Below are positions 1,895-14,088 of a DNA stretch of 64,000 bases, in pieces (the stretch's first letter is position 1; the number at the start of each line of letters is the position of its first letter). Under the pieces are notes generated by a model. It was not told the origin of the DNA, did no database searches, and worked only from the letters and a program-made list of their open reading frames with translations. Both the position numbers and the translations under genes were made by a program. This DNA comes from Microbacterium sp. 4R-513. GTDB taxonomy: Bacteria; Actinomycetota; Actinomycetes; Actinomycetales; Microbacteriaceae. The stretch covers positions 930,001-994,000 of the forward strand of contig NZ_CP049256.1 in the NCBI RefSeq assembly GCF_011046485.1, given 5' to 3'.

Positions 1895-2734
1895 TCAGGG
1901 ACGAGCGGATGCCGCGGGCGCCTGCACCTCGATGAGCTGAAGGATGCGCGCCGCGACGCTGACCGCGATCGCCGCGGGGTCCTTCGACGCGATGCCTGGG
2001 ATGCCGATCGGCGTGATGATGCGAGCGACGTCGTCGTCGGCGTGCCCCACCTCGCGAAGCTCCTTCCGGAAGCGCGCCCACTTGGATGTCGAGCCGATGA
2101 GTCCGATCGAGCCGAGTCGCGCGGTGCGCAGCGCCGTCTCGCAGATCGCGAGGTCTTCGGCGTGGTCGTGGGTCATGACGAGCACGTGCGTTCCGGTCGG
2201 GAGCCCTGCGAGACCGACCTCGGGCACGGGAAGTGTGTGCAGGACTACGGTCGCTACGGCGTCGGACAACAGCCCGCTCTCCCCCGGCACGCCGACGCGC
2301 TCGGGAGCCAGCATCGCCATGCGGGAATCGATCAGGTGGAGCTCGATGGGGTGCCTGCTGAGAATGCGCACGAGCTCGATGCCGACATGCCCGATGCCGA
2401 AGACGGCGACACTCGGCACCACGGGGACCGGCTCGAGCAGCATGGTGACCTCTCCTCCGCAGCACTGCACTCCGTACGCGGTCATCGACTTGTCGCTCAG
2501 CGTCAAGGTGAGCAGTTCGGGTTCGCCCGCTGAGGTCGCGAGCATCCGACGCGCCCGATCGATCGCGGTCGCCTCCAGATTGCCGCCACCGACCGTGCCG
2601 AAGACCGCGTCCGGGGAGACGACCATCTTCGCTCCGCCGTTGCGCGGCGCGTGACCGCGCACGATCGCCATCGTGACGATCACTGCGGGGGTCCGCCCAG
2701 CGCGAAGCTCCTGCGTGGCCTTCAACCAGTCCAT
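1895..2734 (-). CDS. xdhC: Xanthine dehydrogenase accessory protein XdhC
   Basis: XdhC-family chaperone (279 aa), which binds molybdenum cofactor, promotes its sulfuration and loads it into xanthine dehydrogenase. The N-terminal half carries GTVGGGNLEA and the paired cysteines of GVQCCGGEV; the C-terminal half is a Rossmann-like domain opening with VFGIGHVG. I placed the start at the ATG giving MDWLKATQEL, 13 bases after the xdhB stop; the open frame runs further upstream but only inside xdhB. It is the last gene of the xdhA-xdhB-xdhC unit, the order expected if the cofactor is inserted after the subunits are made. Confidence 0.9.
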   Translation of the reverse strand: MDWLKATQELRAGRTPAVIVTMAIVRGHAPRNGGAKMVVSPDAVFGTVGGGNLEATAIDRARRMLATSAGEPELLTLTLSDKSMTAYGVQCCGGEVTMLLEPVPVVPSVAVFGIGHVGIELVRILSRHPIELHLIDSRMAMLAPERVGVPGESGLLSDAVATVVLHTLPVPEVGLAGLPTGTHVLVMTHDHAEDLAICETALRTARLGSIGLIGSTSKWARFRKELREVGHADDDVARIITPIGIPGIASKDPAAIAVSVAARILQLIEVQAPAASARP

Positions 2735-2747
2735 ACGGGCTCCCGAG

Positions 2748-5138
2748 TCAGCCGCCGGTCGCCACAGGGGCCCGTTCGGGCTCGGGCACCGTGCCGCCCC
2801 CGGCGGCGTGGACGGCGGCCCGGGCGCTCTCGATCGCCCAGAACACGGCCTCTGGAGTCGCGGGTGAGCCGAGCTCGACGGTGCGGCCGCCCGGACCGAA
2901 TGCGGCGACCGCCTCGCGAAGCGCTTCTCGCGCGCTGAACGCGAGCATGACGGGGGGCTCACCCACTGCCTTCGAGCCGTAGACCGCACCGTCCTCCGTC
3001 GCCCGCTCGAACAGGCGCACCCGGAACTCGTCGGGCATCTCTGAGAAGCTCGGCAGCTTGTAGGTGCTCGCGGACGGGGTGAGGAGCCGCCCGCGACCAG
3101 GACCGTCGATGGTGTCCCATCGGAGGTCCTCGAGGGTGAGCCATCCGACGCCTTGCAGGTAGCCCCCTTCGATCTGGCCGATGTCGATCATGGGAGAGAG
3201 GGAGTCGCCCACGTCGTGGACGATGTCGACCCGGCGGAGCCGGTAGGCGCCTGTGAAGCCGTCGACCTCGACCTCGGTCGCGGCCGCGCCGTACGCGAAG
3301 TATTTGAACGGCTCGCCCTGCATCGCTTCGGGGTCCCAGTGCAGACCCTCGGTGCGGTAGAAGCCCGCCGCCCAGAGCTGCACACGCTCGAGGTAGGCCG
3401 CGTTCGCGACTTCGGCGAAAGCCAGGCGGTCGTCGCGTTCGCTCGGCCCGGTGACGTACCCTCCCTCGAAGCGGACGTCACGCTCGTCGACCCGCAGCAG
3501 ACGCCCGGCGACGTTCGCCATGCGCCCGCGGATCTGCTCGCACGCGTCTTTCACCGCGCCGCCGTTGAGGTCGGCGCTCGAGGACGCAGCGGTGGCGGAC
3601 GTATTGGGCACCTTGTCGGTGCGCGTCGGAGCAAGCCGCACCTGACGCAGTTCGAGGCCAAGGGCGGTGGCGGCGACCTGCAGCATCTTGGTGTGCAGAC
3701 CCTGGCCCATCTCGGTTCCGCCGTGGTTGATGAGCACGGAGCCGTCCTTGTAGACGTGGACGAGCGCGCCAGCCTGGTTGAACGCGGTGAAGTTGAACGA
3801 GATGCCGAACTTCACCGGCGTCATCGCGATCGCGCGCTTCACATGGACGTGCGTCGCGTTGAACGACGCGCACTCGGTCCGACGTGCATCCAGGTCGCTC
3901 TCCTGGCGGAGCTGCTCCCAGATCGCTTCGAGCCGTTCCGCGTGGCGCACCGGCTGGCCGTACGGCGTCGACTGGCCCGGTCGGTAGAAATTCTGCCGGC
4001 GCAGTGTCAGCGGATCGATGCCGAGCACGGGAGCGACGCGCCCGAGGATGTCCTCGATGAGGAACATGCCCTGCGGCCCGCCGAATCCCCGGAAGGCGGT
4101 CTGGGAGGTCTTATGCGTCTTCGCGACACGACCGCGGGCGAGCACGTTCGGGATCCAGTAGGCGTTGTCCACATGGCAGAGCGCGCGGCTGAGGACGGGC
4201 TCCGAGAGGTCGAGGCTCCAGCCGCCGTCGGACGTCAGCGTCGCCTCGAGCGCCTGGATCATGCCGTCGGCATCGAATCCCGCTTTCCAGACGATATGGA
4301 ACGGATGCCGCTTGCCGGTCATCGTGAGATCCTGCGTGCGGTTCAGGCGCAGACGCACCGGGCGGCCGGTGAGCTTGGCGCCGAGCGCGGCGATCGCGGC
4401 GAAGCCGTGCGGCTGCATCTCCTTCCCGCCGAAACCGCCACCCATGCGCAGCGACTGCACGGTGACCTCGCTGCTCGAAATGCCGAGCACGTGGGCGACG
4501 ATCTCCTGCGTCTCGGACGGGTGCTGCGTCGAGCACTGGATGAAGTACTGTCCCTCGGTGTCGCGGAGGGCGAGCGTGGCCTGCGTTTCGAGGTAGAAGT
4601 GCTCCTGGCCGCCGATCTCGGTCACGCCCTCGAAGACGTGTCGCGCGGCCGCCATCGCGGCGGCGGCGTCGCCCCGACGCAGAGTGCGGGGGATGCCCTG
4701 GAACGAGTCCGCGGCGATCGCCTCGGGAAGCGTGATGATCGAGGGGAGCGACTCGTACGCGACGTCGACCGCGGCGGCGCCGAGGCGCGCGGCCTCCGGA
4801 GTCTCACCGAGCACCCACGCGAGGGCGTGACCATGGAACATGGCCTCGCTCGGAAAGAGCGGCTCGTCGTCCTTGATGCCGGCGTCGTTCTTCCCGGGCA
4901 CGTCGGCCGCGGTCAGCACTCGCACCACGCCCGGCACCTCCAGTGCGGGCGATACGTCGATCCTGACTCTGGCGTGCGCCCGGGTGGATTGCACCGGCCA
5001 CGCCGTGAGCGCTCGCGCGGTGCTCGCCGCCACGTCGTCGGTGTACATCGCCGCACCGGTGACGTGCAGAGCAGCGCTCTCGTGGGCTGAGCTGCGGCCG
5101 ACTACCGGGTTCGGCGGGCGCTCGGCGAGCGAGCTCAC
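2748..5138 (-). CDS. xdhB: Xanthine dehydrogenase, molybdopterin-binding subunit
   Basis: Large catalytic subunit (796 aa) that oxidises hypoxanthine and xanthine to urate at a molybdopterin centre. Family signatures are in order: the ald_Xan_dh N-terminal domain, GGGFGGKE near residue 235 and FRGFGGPQG near 350 around the cofactor, EMGQGLHTK near 475, and VGEPPVML close to the C-terminus, which holds the glutamate that acts as catalytic base. The GTG start overlaps the xdhA stop as GTGA, so the two subunits are translationally coupled. Length is normal for XdhB-type subunits. The guanine deaminase next door supports a purine rather than a nicotinate or CO substrate. Confidence 0.93.
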   Translation of the reverse strand: MSSLAERPPNPVVGRSSAHESAALHVTGAAMYTDDVAASTARALTAWPVQSTRAHARVRIDVSPALEVPGVVRVLTAADVPGKNDAGIKDDEPLFPSEAMFHGHALAWVLGETPEAARLGAAAVDVAYESLPSIITLPEAIAADSFQGIPRTLRRGDAAAAMAAARHVFEGVTEIGGQEHFYLETQATLALRDTEGQYFIQCSTQHPSETQEIVAHVLGISSSEVTVQSLRMGGGFGGKEMQPHGFAAIAALGAKLTGRPVRLRLNRTQDLTMTGKRHPFHIVWKAGFDADGMIQALEATLTSDGGWSLDLSEPVLSRALCHVDNAYWIPNVLARGRVAKTHKTSQTAFRGFGGPQGMFLIEDILGRVAPVLGIDPLTLRRQNFYRPGQSTPYGQPVRHAERLEAIWEQLRQESDLDARRTECASFNATHVHVKRAIAMTPVKFGISFNFTAFNQAGALVHVYKDGSVLINHGGTEMGQGLHTKMLQVAATALGLELRQVRLAPTRTDKVPNTSATAASSSADLNGGAVKDACEQIRGRMANVAGRLLRVDERDVRFEGGYVTGPSERDDRLAFAEVANAAYLERVQLWAAGFYRTEGLHWDPEAMQGEPFKYFAYGAAATEVEVDGFTGAYRLRRVDIVHDVGDSLSPMIDIGQIEGGYLQGVGWLTLEDLRWDTIDGPGRGRLLTPSASTYKLPSFSEMPDEFRVRLFERATEDGAVYGSKAVGEPPVMLAFSAREALREAVAAFGPGGRTVELGSPATPEAVFWAIESARAAVHAAGGGTVPEPERAPVATGG

Positions 5139-6583
5139 GCCGAGACGTCCCTGGACTCGAGAAGTGTGGCGCTGTGCAGTTTGAGCAGCGCCCGGTTGAG
5201 CATCAGGGCGCGGTATGCGGCGCTCGCACGCTGGTCGGAGAGCGGCGCGCCCTCATTCCCGAGCACCTCGGCGGCCGAGCGCACCGTCGCGACATTCCAC
5301 GGTCGATCGATGAGTGCGTCCTCCGTTGCGAAGGCTCGGATCGGCGTCGCCGCGACTCCGCCCAGCCCGATCCGGGCCGCGGTGATGATCCCGTCCTCGA
5401 TGTCGACCGCGAAGCCGACCGCGACGCTCGAGATGTCATCGAACCGGCGCTTCGAGATCTTGTGGAACGCCGACACCCGGGCGAGGGGAAGCGGGATCCG
5501 GATGCCGAGGATGAGCTCGTCGGAGCGTCGCACCGTCTGCCGGTACCCGGTGAAGTACTCCGCGAGATCGACCTCGCGCTCTGTGTCCACCGAGACGAGC
5601 ACGACGCGGGCGCCGAGTGCGAGCAGCGCGGGTGCCGCATCGCCGATCGGAGACCCGGTGCCGAGGTTGCCGCCGAGGGTGGCGCGGTTGCGGATGAGTC
5701 GAGAGGCGAACTGCGGGAGGAGCTCGGCCAGCAGGGGTACCCGACCGTCGAGCCGGCGCTCCACGTCGGAGAGGGCCAGCGCGGCGCCGATCTCGATCGT
5801 CGAGTCTGAAATGGTCAGTGCGCGGAGCTCCTCGAGCTGCTCGATCGCCACGAGGAGCGGGTCGCGTCGTCCGTGGAGGTTCATTTCGACCCCGACGTCG
5901 GTCGAACCGGCGACGGGACGGGCGCTGGGGTTCTCACGCAGGAGGACGAGCGCATCGGGAAGGGTCGCCGGGCGCACGAAGCGCCCGCCGGCGGCTTCGA
6001 AGTCGGTGGGGAGCGGCGCGGGGGCCGGCGACTGCCGTCGGGCGGCGAGCTCGTCACTGGGTTCCGGGCTGCCGAGCGCATAGGCGGCGTCGCGGATCGG
6101 TCGGTAGCCCGTGCACCGGCACAGGTTGCCCCCCAGTGCGTGGAGGTCGAACCCGTTCGGCCCGTGGGCGGCGCTCACCTCGGGATGCTCGAGGGGAGCG
6201 CGATCTTCGCGGTAATACTCCGCGGCCATGCTGCAGGCGAAGCCGGGCGAACAGTAGCCGCACTGGGAGCCGCCGGCAGCGGCGAGCTTCTCCTGGACGG
6301 GGTGGAGCTGGTCGGGAGACCCCAGCCCCTCCGCCGTCACGATCTCCTGGCCGCTCATCGCACCGACGGGAACCAGGCATGCGTTGACCGCGGTCCATGC
6401 GGTACGGCCCCGCTCGTCGGGGGCTGCCACCATCACGGCGCACGCGCCGCACTCGCCTTCGGCGCATCCCTCTTTGCTTCCGGTGAGTCCGCTCAGGCGG
6501 AGCCACTCGAGCGCTGTCGTATGGGCGGTGATGCCCTCCAACAGGCGTCGCCGCCCGTTGACGGTCAGCGCGATGTCGTCCAT
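5135..6583 (-). CDS. xdhA: Xanthine dehydrogenase, Fe-S and FAD subunit
   Basis: Small subunit (482 aa) combining the two [2Fe-2S] clusters and the FAD domain that pass electrons from the molybdenum centre to NAD. The plant-ferredoxin cluster motif CAEGECGACAVM lies near residue 45; the second cluster has CGYCSPGF near 110 and CRCTGYRPI near 155; the FAD-binding domain begins near 195 with the ARPVAGSTDVG motif. The start giving MDDIALTVNG was chosen because AAGGAG lies eight bases upstream. It heads the xdhA-xdhB-xdhC operon with a four-base overlap into xdhB. Confidence 0.93.
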   Translation of the reverse strand: MDDIALTVNGRRRLLEGITAHTTALEWLRLSGLTGSKEGCAEGECGACAVMVAAPDERGRTAWTAVNACLVPVGAMSGQEIVTAEGLGSPDQLHPVQEKLAAAGGSQCGYCSPGFACSMAAEYYREDRAPLEHPEVSAAHGPNGFDLHALGGNLCRCTGYRPIRDAAYALGSPEPSDELAARRQSPAPAPLPTDFEAAGGRFVRPATLPDALVLLRENPSARPVAGSTDVGVEMNLHGRRDPLLVAIEQLEELRALTISDSTIEIGAALALSDVERRLDGRVPLLAELLPQFASRLIRNRATLGGNLGTGSPIGDAAPALLALGARVVLVSVDTEREVDLAEYFTGYRQTVRRSDELILGIRIPLPLARVSAFHKISKRRFDDISSVAVGFAVDIEDGIITAARIGLGGVAATPIRAFATEDALIDRPWNVATVRSAAEVLGNEGAPLSDQRASAAYRALMLNRALLKLHSATLLESRDVSA

Positions 6584-6712
6584 GGTCCGGCTCCTTGTTC
6601 TGAGAAGCCTAATTGTTCTTGCGATCGACGGTCCCGGGCGGAATGAGATCACTAGGGGGCGCAGGGATGTGCGGCGTGCAGCGACGATCCAGGTGTCGGG
6701 GACGAGGGTTCG

Positions 6713-7120
6713 TCAGGCGTCGAGCGCCTTGATGACCTCGTCCGGCGTGGCCTGCATGGGATGGGGCCCGGCGATGTCGAAGAACACGGCTTTGATCGCG
6801 TCGCCGTGCGCGCCGAGGAAGGCGCGCAGAGCGCCCGGCGACTGCAGCGCGACGGCCGGGGGGAGGGCTGCCGGCTTGTGCTGCGCGTCGCTGAACAGGA
6901 GGAGCGCGACGTCGCCCGTGTCGGGGTCGCGGTAGGTCCAGACCTCTCCGACGTCGAGCGGGTTGTCGCGGTCGCCCGGCTTCATGAGGGGCACGACGGT
7001 CGGGCCGTGGCGCAGGGCGAAGGCGACGGCGGCCATGTCCTGCGTCTGGAGAGCATCGGAGAGCGCCGTGTTTCGGAACTCCTCGGCCCCCGGCTTCTTC
7101 GCGCGCTTCTTCCCGGCCAT
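6713..7120 (-). CDS. SseB-like N-terminal domain protein
   Basis: A 135-residue cytosolic protein made of one SseB N-terminal-like domain. The basic start MAGKKRAKKPG is followed by a helix-rich stretch and then by short strands such as VVPLMKP, EVWTYRDPDTG and VALLLFSD, with a C-terminal DEVIKALDA helix. The molecular function of this widespread domain is unknown. The gene lies 33 bases after the GntR regulator gene on the same strand and could be co-transcribed with it, though nothing in the sequence ties it to amine catabolism. Confidence 0.6.
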   Translation of the reverse strand: MAGKKRAKKPGAEEFRNTALSDALQTQDMAAVAFALRHGPTVVPLMKPGDRDNPLDVGEVWTYRDPDTGDVALLLFSDAQHKPAALPPAVALQSPGALRAFLGAHGDAIKAVFFDIAGPHPMQATPDEVIKALDA

Positions 7121-7153: not shown

Positions 7154-7870
7154 TCAGGCGAGGAAGCCCCGCAACAGCGCCTCCGAGCCGGCCAGGTGCT
7201 CGAGGATCGCCGCCTCCGCGGCATCCGGTCGCCCCGCGAGGATCGCGGTCACGATGCGCTCGTGCTGCTCGTTCGAGTGCTCGATGTTGCGCGGCAGGAG
7301 CGGGAAGGTGTCGAGCCACGCGTTGACGCGCGCGCGGTTCTCAGCGACGAGGGCGACCACCGATGGGATGCCTGCGACCTCGGCAATCGTCAGGTGCAGG
7401 AGCGTGTCGAGCCGCCGGTACTCCTCCTCCTCTGCCGCCGATGCCTCTTCATGCCGGGCCCAGAGCTCGGCCCGCGCCTCGGGAGTGAGGGTGCGCTCAG
7501 CAGCGGCCCGGGCCGCCCCCGCCTCGAGCACCCGCCGAAGACCCAGGACGTCCTCGAGCTCGGCGGCCGGCACGACCACGGGCTCCGACGGGCGCGGGAG
7601 AGGATCGGCGACGAACGTCCCGCCGTAGCGACCGCGACGTCGCACCAGGAAGCCGGTGTCGGCGAGCTCGCGGATCGCTTCGCGCACCGTGTCGCGGCTC
7701 ACGGCGTAGAGCGCCGCGAGCTCGCGCTCGGGCGGCAGCGACTCCCCCGGCGCGACGACGCCCAGCCGGATCGTCTGCGCTATCCGAGCGACGGTGTCCT
7801 CGAGTGCATTGCTCTCGCGCACGGGCCGGTAGACGGCCCTCCGCACCTCCTCCAGGGGCGCCTCACTCAT
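7154..7870 (-). CDS. GntR-family (FadR subfamily) transcriptional regulator
   Basis: A 238-residue regulator. Residues about 15-80 form the winged helix-turn-helix (PPERELAALYAVSRDTVRE followed by AIRELADTGFLVRRR), and the remainder is the all-helical FCD ligand-binding domain, with histidines at the usual metal-binding places (LHLTIAEV, SNEQHERIV, LEHLAG). FCD members usually sense small carboxylates or acidic amides. The start giving MSEAPLEEV was preferred to an upstream one inside the spacer. It follows the SDR gene of the gamma-glutamylation cluster on the same strand and is the best candidate for its local regulator, possibly answering to a gamma-glutamylated intermediate; the ligand is inference. 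Confidence 0.85.
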   Translation of the reverse strand: MSEAPLEEVRRAVYRPVRESNALEDTVARIAQTIRLGVVAPGESLPPERELAALYAVSRDTVREAIRELADTGFLVRRRGRYGGTFVADPLPRPSEPVVVPAAELEDVLGLRRVLEAGAARAAAERTLTPEARAELWARHEEASAAEEEEYRRLDTLLHLTIAEVAGIPSVVALVAENRARVNAWLDTFPLLPRNIEHSNEQHERIVTAILAGRPDAAEAAILEHLAGSEALLRGFLA

Positions 7871-7984
7871 CGCCGCCTCCGGCACCGGGTACGAGCACAC
7901 TGAGACCGGCGCGCGACCGGCGCGGAACGAGGCATCCGACCGACGCAGTGGCAGGTCTCGACGGGTCGGTACACATGGGGAAGC

Positions 7985-8758
7985 TCAAAGGGGCGTGACG
8001 TAGGCGTTCGTGATGCCGCCGTCGACCACGAACGCGGTCGCCGTGATGAACGACGCGTCGTCCGAAGCGAGGAAGGCGACGGCGGCCGCCATCTCGTCCG
8101 GCTCGGCGAAGCGTCCCATCGGCACGTGGACGAGCCGGCGCTGCGCGCGCTCCGGGTCCTTGGCGAAGAGCTCCTGCAGCAGCGGAGTGTTGACGGGGCC
8201 AGGGCACAGCGCATTGACGCGGATGCCATGCCGCGCGAACTGCACGCCGAGCTCGCGGGTCATGGCGAGTACGCCGCCCTTCGACGCCGTGTACGAGATC
8301 TGCGACGTGGCCGAACCGAGCAGCGCGACGAACGACGCGGTGTTGACGATCGAGCCGCGCCCCTGCGGCACCATGTGTCTGAGCGCCGCACGGGAGCATA
8401 GGTAGACGCTCTTGAGATTCACGTCCTGCACGCGATCCCACGCGGGCAGCTCCGTCGTCTCGATGGAGTCGTCGTCGGCGGGGGAGATGCCGGCGTTGTT
8501 GAACGCGATGTCGAGGCGTCCGAACTGGTCGAAGACGCCGTCGAAGAGTTCGTCGACGGATGCCTCGTCCGCCACGTCGACGCGGCGGTACAGGCCACCC
8601 ACGTCGCCGGCCGCCTTCTCGCCCGTCGTCGGGTCGAGGTCCGCGATGACGACCGCGGCGCCCTCCGCCGCGAAGCGGCGCGCGGTCGCGAGCCCGATGC
8701 CCGAGGCACCGCCGGTGATGATCGCCACCCGATCCTTCAGTCGCTGCGTCAGATCCAT
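7985..8758 (-). CDS. SDR-family oxidoreductase (possible alcohol dehydrogenase of the amine pathway)
   Basis: Classical short-chain dehydrogenase of 257 aa. It has the cofactor motif TGGASGIG at residues 15-22, an acidic residue after strand beta-2 (ADLD) that favours NAD, the NNAG motif near 90, the catalytic YTASKGG near 160 and a PGPVNTP segment near 190. Classical members oxidise secondary or primary alcohols. It sits between the aldehyde dehydrogenase and the GntR regulator, though a strong hairpin separates it from the former. If the substrate is a gamma-glutamylated amino alcohol, this enzyme would supply the aldehyde for the next step. That role is inferred from position only. Confidence 0.8.
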   Translation of the reverse strand: MDLTQRLKDRVAIITGGASGIGLATARRFAAEGAAVVIADLDPTTGEKAAGDVGGLYRRVDVADEASVDELFDGVFDQFGRLDIAFNNAGISPADDDSIETTELPAWDRVQDVNLKSVYLCSRAALRHMVPQGRGSIVNTASFVALLGSATSQISYTASKGGVLAMTRELGVQFARHGIRVNALCPGPVNTPLLQELFAKDPERAQRRLVHVPMGRFAEPDEMAAAVAFLASDDASFITATAFVVDGGITNAYVTPL

Positions 8759-8784
8759 CGGCTGTTCATTCCTTCCTGGTGCAT

Positions 8785-8833
8785 GTCCCGAAATCGGCCG
8801 CTTGAGCGGCGCTCAAGCGGCCAACTTCGGGAC
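8785..8833. terminator. Large two-tier hairpin between SDR and aldehyde dehydrogenase genes
   Basis: A nearly perfect inverted repeat. The outer arms GTCCCGAA (8785-8792) and TTCGGGAC (8826-8833) pair over 8 bp. After a three-base internal bulge on each side, the inner arms GGCCGCTTGAGC (8796-8807) and GCTCAAGCGGCC (8811-8822) pair over 12 bp around a GGC loop. It lies 37 bases past the aldehyde dehydrogenase stop and 26 bases before the SDR start, both minus strand. A terminator or transcript-stabilising element is likely; no run of T follows. The two-tier shape also resembles dispersed palindromic repeats. Confidence 0.65.
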
Positions 8834-8869
8834 ACGGAAACGGGGGCTGGGACCGGGGATGCCATGGGC

Positions 8870-10231
8870 CTAGGCATCCGTCGCGAAGAAGACGTTCTTG
8901 GTCTCGGTGAAGTGCTCGGCGGCGTCCGGGCCGAGTTCGCGGCCGAGCCCCGACGCCTTCATCCCGCCGAACGGCGTCCAGTAGCGCACCGACGAGTGCG
9001 AGTTGACCGACAGCACGCCGCTCTTGACCCCGCGCGCGACGCGGACGGCGCGGCCGAGGTTCTCGGTCCAGAGCGAACCCGCGAGGCCGTAGATCGTGTC
9101 GTTCGCGAGGCGGATGGCATCGGCCTCGTCGTCGAACGGCAGCACGGCCAGGACAGGGCCGAACACCTCTTCCCGGGCGATGCGGTCCTCGCGCCCGGCG
9201 AGCACGACGGTCGGCGGGAACCAGAAGCCGTCGCCGCCGGGCGCCTCGCCCTGGAACGCGACCTCCGCGCCGTCGAGGAACCCGGCCACCGTCGACCGGT
9301 GCCCCGCCGAGATGAGGGGCCCCATCTCGGTCGTCTCGAGCGACGGATCTCCGACGCGCCAATCCCGCACGGCGGGCTCGAGCAGCTCGAGGAATCGGTC
9401 GTGCACGGACCGCTCGACGAGGATGCGGCTGCGCGCGCAGCAGTCCTGTCCGGCGTTGTCGAACACGGCGCCGGGTGCCGCAGCGGCCGCCTTCTCGAGG
9501 TCGGCATCGGCGAAGACGATGTTCGCGCTCTTCCCGCCGAGCTCGAGCGTCACAGGCTTGAGGCCTTGCGCGCATCCCGCGGCGACCGAGACTCCGACCT
9601 CGGTCGAGCCCGTGAACACAACCTTGCGCACGTCGGGGTGCGACACGAACCGCTGGCCGACGACCGACCCCGAACCGGTGATGACCGTGAGGAGACCCTC
9701 AGGAAGGCCGGCCCGTAGGGCGAGCTCGCCGATGCGCACGGCGGTGAGCGGGGTGAGCTCCGCGGGCTTCAGCACGACGGCATTGCCCGCGGCGAGCGCC
9801 GGCGCGAAGCCCCACGATGCGATCGTCATGGGGAAGTTCCACGGCACGATGATCCCGACCACGCCGTAGGGCTCGTGGAAGGTGACATCGAGCCCGCCGG
9901 CGACGGGGATCTGCTGTCCGCTCAGGCGCTCGGGCGCACCGGCGTAGAAGTTGAGCACCTGCGCGACATGGGATGCCTCCCACCGCGCGGAGCTGATCGG
10001 ATGCCCCGAATTCTGCACCTCGAGAGCGGCGAGCTCTTCGACATGGTCCTCGACGACCCGCGCGAACGCGCGCAGAGCATCGGCTCGGGCCACGGGAGCG
10101 AGAGACGCCCACGCGCGCTGCGCGACGACCGCGCGCGCGATGGCGTCGTCGACCTCCTCGACCGACGCCCGCGGCACCTCCTGGAAGGCCTGCCCCGTCG
10201 CGGGGTTGATGAGGGTGAAGGTGTCGGTCAT
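8870..10231 (-). CDS. NAD(P)-dependent aldehyde dehydrogenase
   Basis: A 453-residue aldehyde dehydrogenase. Visible motifs are VPWNFPM near residue 130, KPAELTPLTAVR near 155, the GSTEVG cofactor loop near 210, ELGGKSANIV near 232, and the active site GQDCC with Cys264 as the likely nucleophile. It ends with the usual PFGGMKASGLGRE segment. Its ATG overlaps the stop of the gamma-glutamyl hydrolase gene as ATGA, which indicates one transcript and a shared pathway. By analogy with PuuC it should oxidise a gamma-glutamylated aldehyde to the acid that the hydrolase then cleaves. The length is at the short end for the family but no motif is missing. Confidence 0.9.
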   Translation of the reverse strand: MTDTFTLINPATGQAFQEVPRASVEEVDDAIARAVVAQRAWASLAPVARADALRAFARVVEDHVEELAALEVQNSGHPISSARWEASHVAQVLNFYAGAPERLSGQQIPVAGGLDVTFHEPYGVVGIIVPWNFPMTIASWGFAPALAAGNAVVLKPAELTPLTAVRIGELALRAGLPEGLLTVITGSGSVVGQRFVSHPDVRKVVFTGSTEVGVSVAAGCAQGLKPVTLELGGKSANIVFADADLEKAAAAAPGAVFDNAGQDCCARSRILVERSVHDRFLELLEPAVRDWRVGDPSLETTEMGPLISAGHRSTVAGFLDGAEVAFQGEAPGGDGFWFPPTVVLAGREDRIAREEVFGPVLAVLPFDDEADAIRLANDTIYGLAGSLWTENLGRAVRVARGVKSGVLSVNSHSSVRYWTPFGGMKASGLGRELGPDAAEHFTETKNVFFATDA

Positions 10232-11055
10232 GCGACCGCCCCCGTCGGTCCGGGGCGTTTCGTCTCGCTCCGCTCGCTCAACGACCGAGACTTCGCCGCC
10301 GCGAAGACGGATGCCTCGGCCACGAGCCCCTCGAAGAGCCGCTTGTCCTCGGCATTCTCCTCGGGATGCCACTGCACCCCGACGACGTACCCCTCGCCCT
10401 CCGACTCGAACGCCTGCACGAGGCCGTCGTCCGTCGCAGCGACCGGAACGAGGCCCTCCCCGAGCCGGTCGATACCCTGGTGGTGGTAGCTGTGCACGTC
10501 GAAGGCGCCGGCTCCCAGCATCCCGGCCAGGCGCGAATTCGGGGCGACCTCGACGGTGTTCGTCGCGAACACGCCTCCGCCGATGCGGTACCGCTCGGTG
10601 CCGAGCGCCTCCGGAAGGTGCTGGTGCAGCGTCCCGCCCCGGGCGACGTTCACGAGCTGAAGCCCGCGGCAGATGGCGAGCACCGGCATCCGTCGCTCCT
10701 CCGCTCCTCGGAAGAGCGCGAGCTCCCACTCGTCGCGGTCCGCGCGTGACGGATCGGTGAGCGGATGCCGCTCCGCGCCGTAGAGCGCGGGATCGACGTC
10801 CAGTCCGCCGGTCAGGATGAGGCCGTCCAGGCCGTCGAGCACGGCGGCGGCCGCGGCATCCGTGTCGATCCCCGTCGCGGTGCCGCGCTGGGGCGGGAGG
10901 AGCACCGCGATGCCGCCGGCGTCGGTCACCGACGTGAAGTACTGCTGGGGCAGGAATGCGGCACGGACGTCCCAGACGCCCTGCTTCGCCTGCTCGAGAT
11001 AGGTCGTGAGGCCGATGACGGGCGTCCGGCCCGCGTCAGAGTCGTTCGAAACCAC
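10228..11055 (-). CDS. Class I glutamine amidotransferase-like gamma-glutamyl hydrolase (PuuD-type)
   Basis: Peptidase C26-type hydrolase of 275 aa. The nucleophile cysteine is in LAICRGLQL near residue 130 and the catalytic His-Glu pair in GVQWHPEE near 232; GLILTGGLDVDP near 80 is the usual substrate loop. PuuD-type enzymes cut the gamma-glutamyl amide and release glutamate plus the deglutamylated acid. The GTG start lies inside the last codons of the glutamine-synthetase-like gene (20-base overlap), and its stop overlaps the aldehyde dehydrogenase start. The three genes therefore form a tight ligase-hydrolase-dehydrogenase block. Purine or tryptophan amidotransferase roles are unlikely, because no synthase partner is adjacent. 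Confidence 0.87.
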   Translation of the reverse strand: MVSNDSDAGRTPVIGLTTYLEQAKQGVWDVRAAFLPQQYFTSVTDAGGIAVLLPPQRGTATGIDTDAAAAAVLDGLDGLILTGGLDVDPALYGAERHPLTDPSRADRDEWELALFRGAEERRMPVLAICRGLQLVNVARGGTLHQHLPEALGTERYRIGGGVFATNTVEVAPNSRLAGMLGAGAFDVHSYHHQGIDRLGEGLVPVAATDDGLVQAFESEGEGYVVGVQWHPEENAEDKRLFEGLVAEASVFAAAKSRSLSERSETKRPGPTGAVA

Positions 11056-12391
11056 GCACCCGCTCCCAGTCCGTCACCGCCGCATCGAAGGCCTCGACCT
11101 CGATGCGCGCTTGATTGAGATAGTGCTCGACCACTTCGTCGCCGAAGGCGGCGCGCGCGATCGCCGACTCGTCGAACAGGCGCGCCGCGTCGCGCAGCGT
11201 GGTCGGCAGGTGGTCCACGCCGGAGGTGTACGCGTTTCCGGCGAGCGGCTCGGGCAGCGGGAGCTCGTGCTCGACGCCGTGGAGCCCGCCGGCGATGATC
11301 GCGGCGATGCCGAGGTACGGGTTGACGTCGCCTCCGGGCACTCGGTTCTCGACGCGCAGGGACGATCCGTGCCCGATGACCCGCAGGGCGCAGGTGCGGT
11401 TGTCGAGGCCCCAGGCGACGCCGGTCGGCGCGAAGGATCCCCGGGCGTAGCGCTTGTAGGAGTTGATCGTGGGCGCGTAGAGCAGGGTGAACTCGCGGAG
11501 CGTCGCGAGGATGCCCGCGATCCAGTGCTCCATGAGGGGGCTGAATCCGTGTCCGCCGTCGCCTGCCATGACGGGCGTGCCGCCCTCATCGCGCAGTGAG
11601 AGGTGGATGTGGCAGCTGTTGCCCTCGCGCTCGTTGAACTTCGCCATGAACGTGATGGCCTTGCCGTGCTTGTCGGCGATGGCCTTCGCACCGTTCTTGT
11701 AGATCGTGTGCTGGTCCGCGGTCTCGAGCACCTCGGCGTAGCGGAAGGCGATCTCCTGCTGGCCGAGGTTGCACTCGCCCTTCACGCCCTCCGTGTAGAG
11801 GCCGGCGCCGTCCATCGAGAGACGGATGTCGCGCAGGAGCGGCTCGAGCCGCCCCGAGGCGAGGATGTCGTAGTCGACGTTGTAGTCGGTGGACGGCTTG
11901 AGGTCGCGGTAGCCCTTGGTCCAGGCATCCCGATACGTCTCATCGAAGACGATGAACTCGAGTTCTGTGCCCGAGTAGGCGACGAGACCCCGGTCGGCGA
12001 GGAGTGCGCGCTGGGTCTTCAGGATGTCGCGAGGCGACTGGACCACGGGCGCACCGCTCTCCCAACCGAGGTCTGCGATGACGAGAGCCGAACCGGGAAG
12101 CCAGGGGATGCGCCGGAGGGTGGCGGGGTCGGAGAGCAGCATCATGTCGCCGTATCCGGTCTCCCAGCTCGACATGGCGTAGCCGTCGACGGTGTTCATG
12201 TCGACATCCACCGAAAGGAGGTAGTTGCACGCCTCGGCGCCGTGTGGGAGCACCTCCTCCTGGAAGAGTCGGGCCGACACGCGCTTGCCGACGAGACGGC
12301 CCTGCGCGTCGGCGAAGGCCACGACGACGGTGTCGATGTCACCCGCCGCGATCGCCGCTTCGAGTTCCGACACGCTGAGGTTTCCCGGCAT
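11036..12391 (-). CDS. Glutamine synthetase-like gamma-glutamyl-amine ligase
   Basis: A 451-residue glutamine-synthetase-fold ligase that would join glutamate's gamma-carboxyl to an amine using ATP. Metal- and substrate-site motifs are present: TELEFIVFD near 145, GECNLGQQEI near 205, the HIHLSL strand near 265, GLDNRTCALRV near 335 and ENRVPGGDVNPY near 355. There is no adenylylation-loop tyrosine region like that of GlnA, and the neighbours are catabolic, so this is a GlnA3/GlnA4/PuuA-type enzyme, not the nitrogen-assimilating synthetase. Streptomyces GlnA4 acts on ethanolamine, GlnA3 on polyamines. The ethanolamine-type permease across the divergent promoter region makes ethanolamine the favoured substrate here, as an inference. 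Confidence 0.85.
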   Translation of the reverse strand: MPGNLSVSELEAAIAAGDIDTVVVAFADAQGRLVGKRVSARLFQEEVLPHGAEACNYLLSVDVDMNTVDGYAMSSWETGYGDMMLLSDPATLRRIPWLPGSALVIADLGWESGAPVVQSPRDILKTQRALLADRGLVAYSGTELEFIVFDETYRDAWTKGYRDLKPSTDYNVDYDILASGRLEPLLRDIRLSMDGAGLYTEGVKGECNLGQQEIAFRYAEVLETADQHTIYKNGAKAIADKHGKAITFMAKFNEREGNSCHIHLSLRDEGGTPVMAGDGGHGFSPLMEHWIAGILATLREFTLLYAPTINSYKRYARGSFAPTGVAWGLDNRTCALRVIGHGSSLRVENRVPGGDVNPYLGIAAIIAGGLHGVEHELPLPEPLAGNAYTSGVDHLPTTLRDAARLFDESAIARAAFGDEVVEHYLNQARIEVEAFDAAVTDWERVRGFERL

Positions 12392-12543
12392 CCGTCACCC
12401 TCCCCTGGAGTGCTCGCCGGTGGTGGCGCGCTCGTCCACCCTAACCAGCAAGTTGCGTCCAAAGGTAGACACAGCCAACCAATAAGGCCACAATCTTGCG
12501 CAAGGCGCATCCCCCGCGCCGCACCCGAGCGCACGGAGGAAGC
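12392..12543. promoter_or_regulatory. Divergent control region between ligase and permease genes
   Basis: These 152 bases separate the minus-strand gamma-glutamylation genes from the plus-strand permease. They hold a perfect 10-bp palindrome, CTTGCGCAAG, at 12495-12504 and a locally AT-richer stretch around 12470-12495 where promoters could lie. The permease ribosome-binding site ACGGAGGAAG is at its right edge. No -35/-10 pair stands out. The palindrome is a candidate operator, but I see no second copy near the other genes of the cluster. Confidence 0.4.
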
Positions 12544-14088
12544 ATGGCAGAGTCGAGGAGCGAGGCCCGGAAGGTCGCCGGGGCGACATATAACCGCGCC
12601 GGCCAGGGCTATTTCGAGAAACGGACGCTTCAGCGGTCCGCCGGCGTGTGGGGCCTCTGGGGTCTCGCGGTCGCCGCGGTGATCTCGGGCGACTTCTCCG
12701 GGTGGAACTTCGGCATCGACTTCGCGGGATTCGGCGGCATGCTCATCGCCTTCGCGATCCTCGTGCTCATGTACTACGGCATGATCTTCTCGATCGGCGA
12801 GATGGCGGCTGCGATGCCGCACACGGGCGGGGCGTACTCGTTCGCACGATCGGCCATGGGGCCGTGGGGCGGTCTCGTCACCGGGGCGGCCGAGACGATC
12901 GAGTACGTCGCGACCACGGCCGTCATCGTCTACTTCTCGGCGTCGTACGCCGATGCCATCACCAGTGAGCTCCTCGGGATCTCGCTTCCGGGATGGGTGT
13001 GGTGGATCATCCTCTACGTCGCCTTCATCGCGCTCAACGCGGCGGGCGCCAACATCTCGTTCAAGTTCGCGATCGTCGTCTCGATCATCTCGATCGGCAT
13101 CATCCTCGTCTTCTCGGCGATGGCGATCTTCTCGGGAGCCTTCTCGTGGGACGCCCTGTGGGACATCGTCCCGGATGCCGGCCAGTCGGCGTTCCTCCCG
13201 CACGGCGTCCTCCCGATCCTCTTCGCCCTGCCGTTCGCGATGTGGTTCTTCCTCGGCATCGAGGAGCTGCCGCTCGCCGCAGAGGAGTCGCACGATCCGG
13301 TCCGGGACATCCCTCGAGCGGGTTTCTGGGCACGCGGCACGCTGATCGTGACGGGCCTCCTGGTGCTGTTCCTCAACACCGGCGTGCTCGGCGCAGAGGC
13401 GACGGGGGTGGCGGCCGAGCCGCTCCTCGACGGCTTCCGCGCGATCGTCGGCGACGGCGCGGCGGCGGTGCTGGCGCTCTTCGCACTGGTCGGGCTACTC
13501 GCCTCGCTGCAGGGCATCATGTTCGCCTACGGCCGCAACATGTACTCGCTCTCGCGAGCGGGCTACTACCCGCGCTTCCTTTCGCTCACCGGCAAGCGCA
13601 AGACCCCGTGGGTCGCGCTCGTCGTGGGAGCGGTCATCGGCTTCATCGCGCTCGTAGCTCTCGACACGATCGCCGCGCTCAACGAGGGAGCGGGAGCGGT
13701 GGCGGGAGCCATCGTCCTCAACATCGCGGTGTGGGGCGCGGTGCTCGCGTACCTCCTGCAGATGGTGTCGTTCATCATCCTGCGCCGGAAGTACCCGAAC
13801 GCCGAACGCCCCTACCTGAGCCCGTGGGGCGTGCCCGGCGCCGTCGTCGCCGCGGTCATCGCCGCGCTCATCTTCGTCGGGTTCCTGCTCAACCCGACGT
13901 TCCTTCCCGCGATCATCGCGATCGGCATCGTGTACCTGGTCATCCTCGTCGGCTTCGCGCTCTACTTCCGCCATCGTCTCGTGCTCTCCCCGGAGGAGGA
14001 GTACGCCCTCTCGGGCGGCCACCATGGCGACCCGCAGACCGAGGGCTACGACGCGATGGAGGGTGAGGTCTTCGACGGCAAGCCGTGA
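12544..14088 (+). CDS. APC-family permease, ethanolamine permease type
   Basis: An integral membrane transporter of 514 aa with about 12 hydrophobic segments, of the amino acid/polyamine/organocation superfamily. The early sequence VISGDFSGWNFG and the mid-protein FFLGIEELPLAAEES resemble bacterial ethanolamine permeases more than amino-acid or putrescine carriers. The C-terminal 45 residues are hydrophilic and acidic and should be cytoplasmic. The start giving MAESRSEARK was chosen because GGAGG lies six bases upstream. It is divergent from the gamma-glutamyl ligase operon and would import its substrate. Substrate choice rests on resemblance and context. Confidence 0.8.
   Translation: MAESRSEARKVAGATYNRAGQGYFEKRTLQRSAGVWGLWGLAVAAVISGDFSGWNFGIDFAGFGGMLIAFAILVLMYYGMIFSIGEMAAAMPHTGGAYSFARSAMGPWGGLVTGAAETIEYVATTAVIVYFSASYADAITSELLGISLPGWVWWIILYVAFIALNAAGANISFKFAIVVSIISIGIILVFSAMAIFSGAFSWDALWDIVPDAGQSAFLPHGVLPILFALPFAMWFFLGIEELPLAAEESHDPVRDIPRAGFWARGTLIVTGLLVLFLNTGVLGAEATGVAAEPLLDGFRAIVGDGAAAVLALFALVGLLASLQGIMFAYGRNMYSLSRAGYYPRFLSLTGKRKTPWVALVVGAVIGFIALVALDTIAALNEGAGAVAGAIVLNIAVWGAVLAYLLQMVSFIILRRKYPNAERPYLSPWGVPGAVVAAVIAALIFVGFLLNPTFLPAIIAIGIVYLVILVGFALYFRHRLVLSPEEEYALSGGHHGDPQTEGYDAMEGEVFDGKP

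Follow-up and report, generated by a model that had tools for sequence, protein, structure and literature searches.

A probable ethanolamine gamma-glutamylation gene cluster of the GlnA4 type in Microbacterium sp. 4R-513 and a candidate operator of its GntR regulator

Organization of the gene cluster

We analyzed a stretch of 64,000 nucleotides (hereafter the window) from Microbacterium sp. 4R-513, whose genome is a single contig of 3.91 Mb, focusing on a block of six genes that probably serves the breakdown of ethanolamine via gamma-glutamylation. The arrangement given in a preliminary description of this DNA was confirmed: a permease gene on the plus strand diverges from five genes on the minus strand, which encode, in this order, a ligase, a hydrolase, an aldehyde dehydrogenase, a short-chain dehydrogenase/reductase (SDR) and a GntR-type regulator. 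The overlapping run of the ligase, hydrolase and aldehyde dehydrogenase genes was likewise found as claimed, with overlaps of 20 bases (ligase/hydrolase) and 4 bases (hydrolase/aldehyde dehydrogenase), followed by gaps of 111 bases to the SDR gene and of 114 bases between the SDR and GntR genes.

The ligase (11036–12391, minus strand; PF00120, 318.2 bits) is of the GlnA4 type and the proposed gamma-glutamylethanolamide synthetase. The hydrolase gene (10228–11055, minus) encodes a peptidase C26/glutamine-amidotransferase-like protein matching the whole PF07722 profile (215 bits), the aldehyde dehydrogenase (8870–10231, minus) scores 513.8 bits with PF00171, and the SDR (7985–8758, minus) reaches 482.3 bits with NF004713/PRK06057 (cut-off 404). 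These three proteins, counterparts of orf5/SCO1615, SCO1612 and SCO1611 of Streptomyces, are proposed to act as gamma-glutamylglycine hydrolase, as dehydrogenase of a gamma-glutamyl aldehyde and as gamma-glutamylethanolamide dehydrogenase, respectively. The last gene (7154–7870 with an ATG start, or up to 7900 if a GTG is used; minus) encodes a GntR/FCD repressor (PF00392, 65.8 bits; PF07729, 60.5 bits), the counterpart of EpuRI (SCO1614). The APC permease (12544–14088, plus; the ATG at 12544 is a likelier start than the TTG at 12496) is the proposed ethanolamine importer. It had been said to look like an ethanolamine carrier, and its top NCBIfam model is indeed the ethanolamine permease TIGR00908, yet the score of 326.5 bits stays below the curated cut-off of 381.75.

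Relationship to the putrescine pathway

The ligase, hydrolase and aldehyde dehydrogenase share their families with PuuA, PuuD and PuuC of Escherichia coli, as would be the case if putrescine or another polyamine were degraded via the Puu route, with the flavin amine oxidase encoded elsewhere. Model scores speak against this: the ligase reached 185.9 bits with the gamma-glutamylputrescine synthetase model NF045547 (cut-off 650), the aldehyde dehydrogenase 358.5 bits with the PuuC model (cut-off 850) and the hydrolase 98.3 bits with the PuuD model (cut-off 266). Profile searches of the window proteins found neither a PuuB-like oxidase nor PuuE within the block, which agrees with the earlier claim that PuuB is absent from the locus and sets the block apart from the E. 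coli pathway.

A search of the whole genome with PuuB gave four matches, of which three were weak (E 1.7e-5 to 8.8e-4). The clear one is a DAO-family protein encoded at genome position 2,141,463–2,142,584, with 36% identity over residues 21–391 (E 2.4e-32). It fits the models for aminophosphonate oxidoreductase and L-pipecolate oxidase best, both far below their cut-offs, and no polyamine genes were seen in the surrounding 16 kb, where translations were judged by eye. Being isolated and a poor fit to the models, the gene at 2,141,463 is not favoured as the missing PuuB partner.

Phylogenetic position of the ligase

Among 8000 candidates scored, of which the best 120 were considered, the closest relatives of the ligase are from Microbacterium, with up to 94% identity. 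The genome contains three glutamine synthetase domain matches including the ligase of the block; the second exceeds the TIGR00653 cut-off and is of the GlnA1 type, while the third falls below it and groups with a GlnA2-like sequence. In a tree of 27 sequences, the window ligase lies in a clade of 13 (support 97/92) together with Streptomyces sequences, one of which is anchored as GlnA4 because its Streptomyces gene (genome G182, locus L018) matches both published glnA4 primers exactly. Outside a 19-sequence clade (100/98) are E. coli PuuA, the GlnA1 and GlnA2 sequences and the third enzyme of the anchored Streptomyces genome; several terminal branches are long, so that the exact position of PuuA is unsure. 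The names GlnA1, GlnA2 and GlnA3 in the anchored genome are our assumption from gene positions and the grouping itself. The comparison with GlnA3, GlnA4 and PuuA proposed in the preliminary description thus places the enzyme in the GlnA4 clade, and it groups neither with PuuA nor with the GlnA3-like sequence.

We also considered the flap position E327, where the window ligase carries F, as described for GlnA4 (PMC6529630). This residue was dropped as a mark of GlnA4, since five sequences outside the GlnA4 clade share it. The sequence labelled GlnA3 has W at this position, and its label is unsure, as Streptomyces GlnA3 is described with Thr (PMC8998196).

Conserved linkage and distribution among relatives

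Next, we analyzed the gene neighbourhood of the best 80 of 593 ligase relatives, which are close ones (65–92% identical), counting a gene as linked if it matched with more than 60 bits within 8 kb of the ligase. Aldehyde dehydrogenase and hydrolase genes were each linked in 79/80 loci, the SDR in 78/80, the GntR gene in 69/80 and the permease in 55/80; in the two loci without SDR the contig ends less than 1.5 kb downstream of the ligase. E. coli PuuB and the iron alcohol dehydrogenase of Aminobacter were matched in none of the 80. Rarer neighbours were PuuP-like and PuuC-like genes (three loci each), PuuE-like and second ligase-like genes (two each) and a PuuA-like gene (one). Since the same gene set recurs in relatives, the block is no chance neighbourhood.

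A further sample comprised 60 loci of a genus that we take as Mycobacterium, because two contigs hold ligase DNA identical to named Mycobacterium loci. After four loci had been dropped, the SDR and hydrolase were found in 56/56, the aldehyde dehydrogenase in 55/56, and PuuB and the iron alcohol dehydrogenase gave no match in any of the 60 fetched loci. With the amine oxidase unmatched in both samples, the SDR linked wherever the contig reaches and the ligase outside the PuuA branch, the putrescine route was rejected on tree, model scores and linkage, and we consider it highly improbable.

Relatives of the ligase occur in 58/197 genomes of the phylum (E ≤1e-60) and 62/149 genomes of the family (E ≤1e-150), the own genome counted in both cases, and in 151/198 genomes of the genus taken as Mycobacterium; two other genomes from the genus of the window contained none at the family threshold. 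Besides that, some pathway-gene matches in loci L053 (9554–13017) and L103 (10143–11387) are split, as by frameshifts or sequencing errors. The amidase, inositol-phosphatase-like and choline-kinase-like genes next to an Arthrobacter plasmid copy were dropped as a general ethanolamine source: near the ligase in the best 80 relatives, matches of more than 60 bits were found for amidase and phosphatase in 0/80 and for choline kinase in 1/80 loci.

Proposed pathway

Taking the observed gene order, protein families, ligase clade and linkage together, we infer a GlnA4-type gamma-glutamylation route for ethanolamine breakdown, to which we assign a probability of about 0.88. The permease would import ethanolamine, which the ligase would join to glutamate at the expense of ATP, yielding gamma-glutamylethanolamide. 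The SDR may then oxidize the hydroxyl group, giving an aldehyde that the aldehyde dehydrogenase may convert to gamma-glutamylglycine, and the C26 hydrolase may release glutamate and glycine, of which glycine can be fed into glycine cleavage. Repression of these genes would be exerted by the GntR protein at a palindrome located between the ligase and permease genes. A mechanism of this kind, with the SDR in place of PuuB and ending in glutamate plus glycine, had been put forward in the preliminary description and is supported by the position of the ligase in the GlnA4 clade, the linkage of the SDR without PuuB and the published Streptomyces work. In particular, the tight association of SDR and GlnA4 suggests the SDR as the second step.

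Further points are in line with ethanolamine. EutB (PF06751) had no match in the genome, and among 14 control genomes E. coli alone matched; the glycine cleavage P-protein (glycine decarboxylase) is encoded; and the top model of the permease is an ethanolamine permease. The same direction is indicated by two plasmid loci that combine a related ligase with an iron alcohol dehydrogenase, one of them next to bhcABCD, and by the Phaeobacter proteins described below. Several observations weigh on the other side. The permease score lies below the cut-off of that model, the model matched by the SDR bears the name 3-oxoacyl-ACP reductase, the flap-position F is not diagnostic of GlnA4, a PuuB-like oxidase is encoded elsewhere in the genome, and the candidate palindrome does not occur in three Streptomyces loci although EpuRI acts in Streptomyces. 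The ligase is 65–68% identical to three named Streptomyces ligases, and its substrate and the activities of the set are predictions.

In addition, other amino alcohols with a primary hydroxyl group would require identical chemistry, so that the natural substrate could be 3-aminopropanol, alaninol or several such compounds; an alcohol and an aldehyde dehydrogenase suit any of them, and in two Microbacterium loci (L052, L053) the neighbourhood includes genes for a PuuE-like aminotransferase and a PuuC-like aldehyde dehydrogenase. Streptomyces GlnA4 was reported to be ethanolamine-specific among the compounds tried (PMC6529630), and together with the top transporter model this makes another substrate unlikely.

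Comparison with known systems

The ethanolamine route has been proposed before in Streptomyces. According to Krysenko et al. 2019 (PMC6529630), GlnA4 makes gamma-glutamylethanolamide with a reported specificity for ethanolamine (Km 0.47 mM), deletion of glnA4 in Streptomyces coelicolor abolishes growth on ethanolamine, EpuRI represses glnA4, and SCO1611, SCO1612 and SCO1615 are proposed for the later steps. The whole gene set is listed in the Figure 2 legend of that paper, and its intermediates are those given for the window DNA in the preliminary description. The SCO1610–SCO1615 locus comprises an SDR, an aldehyde dehydrogenase, glnA4, a regulator, a glutamine amidotransferase and, in several species, a putative transporter. 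The preliminary description was therefore wrong in contrasting the window with Streptomyces on the ground that all enzymes are encoded together. Of the same set, the window locus contains the SDR and aldehyde dehydrogenase, a hydrolase of the amidotransferase type, the regulator and the permease. Hence, the proposed pathway and the full locus are already published, and the window is a further example in a different gene order, which places the published route in Microbacterium and its kin.

The differences concern the arrangement. In the window, the permease stands opposite to a series that starts with the ligase and continues through hydrolase, aldehyde dehydrogenase and SDR to GntR, whereas in the named Streptomyces loci the GntR gene is divergent to the ligase, with aldehyde dehydrogenase and SDR after the ligase; the hydrolase, where seen (L116 and L124), is placed on the opposite side. 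The permeases of L124 and of the window share 40% identity.

To anchor these loci, we compared eight published primer pieces (for SCO1612, glnA4 and SCO1614) with ten loci of the Streptomyces type, of which three are named. When the best hit of each primer over the entire locus was taken, 50/80 primer–locus pairs showed at most three mismatches; just two primers, the reverse ones for SCO1612 and glnA4, reached this level in all ten loci (0–2 mismatches), and the SCO1614 start piece did so in none of the ten. In each of the three named loci, SCO1612, glnA4 and SCO1614 have at least one primer at this level inside the matching gene, as judged by eye. On the window sequence, the reverse primer for SCO1612 aligns with two mismatches at 9505 in the aldehyde dehydrogenase gene, one SCO1614 primer with three mismatches at 7390 in the GntR gene, and the glnA4 reverse primer with five mismatches inside the ligase gene; the remaining five of the eight, among them the other three for SCO1614, had no useful match there.

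In Proteobacteria, a parallel route was predicted for Phaeobacter sp. MED193, likewise with a ligase, alcohol and aldehyde dehydrogenation and gamma-glutamylglycine hydrolysis, whose predicted proteins rise on phosphatidylethanolamine (PMC10132767), and PMC6529630 cites ethanolamine gamma-glutamylation for Chromohalobacter salexigens. Six plasmid loci were opened. On one, an Arthrobacter conjugative plasmid, the ligase, hydrolase and aldehyde dehydrogenase are accompanied by an SDR that carries the annotation 3-oxoacyl-ACP reductase. Two others, Aminobacter pAA03 and one from Ruegeria, also have a related ligase and an aldehyde dehydrogenase, but the SDR is replaced by an iron-containing alcohol dehydrogenase and the C26 hydrolase by an enzyme of the N-formylglutamate amidohydrolase type. 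The remaining loci, from Paenarthrobacter, Paraburkholderia and Rhodococcus, show other gene settings, so not all relatives of the ligase belong to the ethanolamine pathway.

Two of the plasmids deserve separate mention. On pAA03 of Aminobacter aminovorans (L040, 8172–18354) the ligase set is immediately followed by bhcABCD, the genes for the beta-hydroxyaspartate cycle, an adjacency that fits glycine or glyoxylate as product and a possible sink for C2 products. The plasmid of Paenarthrobacter sp. YJN-5 (L041, 6177–19341) carries two copies, in opposite directions, of a set that combines a related ligase, a class III aminotransferase and an aldehyde dehydrogenase, with an IS21 element nearby; this set perhaps acts on another amine.

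A candidate operator upstream of the ligase

What is new here is a conserved DNA site at which binding of the repressor is predicted. The half-site pair AWWGGT-N11-ACCWWT, suggested by comparing 46 permease–ligase gaps, lies at 12461–12483 between ligase and permease (no strand assigned) and is the sole exact site of its form in the window. We scanned 80 regions, one from the window and 79 from other loci (L107 was too short), each covering at most 350 bases upstream of the ligase gene. The motif occurred with spacing 10 in 28 regions, with 11 in 23, with 9 in one and with no further spacing in the range 4–18, which amounts to 50/80 regions for spacings 10 and 11 combined; dinucleotide-preserving shuffles gave a mean of 0.00–0.03 regions per spacing. 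As the motif was picked after viewing many of the same sequences, the 50/80 is no independent test. The exact palindrome is missing in 30/80 regions, including the three Streptomyces loci and Microbacterium L048 and L054. A different, perfect palindrome in the permease–ligase gap of the window (CTTGCGCAAG) was dropped as operator, being present in 1/46 gaps.

The Mycobacterium loci served as a fresh sample, in which the search for GntR genes extended over 6.5 kb on the downstream side and roughly 0.5 kb on the upstream side. The site was present in 30/32 loci with a GntR gene versus 1/24 without. Both GntR-bearing misses carry the site with one mismatch, and the lone site-bearing exception has a GntR match that scores just 84 bits and may be a remnant. 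Inclusion of 14 named loci brought the counts to 40/42 versus 1/28, and since 11 of these 14 have no permease, the permease does not explain the association. On the ligase tree, GntR changes at least six times and the site seven times. Five independent pairs lie on supported branches, of which four agree, none disagrees and one shows no difference; the sign test has a median p of 0.125, with 0.05 out of reach. Given so few independent pairs, a Fisher p on the Mycobacterium locus counts would be no fair probability.

From conservation and this association, the palindrome is likely the operator of the GntR protein. On balance, we also favour the wider view that it may be an EpuRI-type operator in Microbacteriaceae and Mycobacteriaceae, and that several mycobacterial lineages with the enzymes but neither repressor nor site would run the pathway free of this control, possibly recycling internal ethanolamine. 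EpuRI was reported to bind eight promoter regions in gel shifts, including that of glnA4 (PMC8998196). We found no published EpuRI operator: the main text of PMC8998196 does not contain the terms 'binding motif', 'operator' or 'palindrom', and section 11 of PMC6529630 gives none. A search for Rv2858c together with Rv2859c gave no paper. If true, the operator would offer a cheap way to the regulon and to a sequence-based prediction of which bacteria control the pathway.

Neighbouring genes

Beyond the GntR gene, a reading frame of 135 amino acids (6713–7120) precedes the next genes; neither Pfam nor NCBIfam gave a match to it at E ≤0.001. It is followed on the minus strand by genes for molybdopterin dehydrogenase subunits (5135–6652 and 2748–5138). 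A reading frame within 1895–2989 (minus) resembles XdhC, and these genes perhaps belong to purine catabolism.

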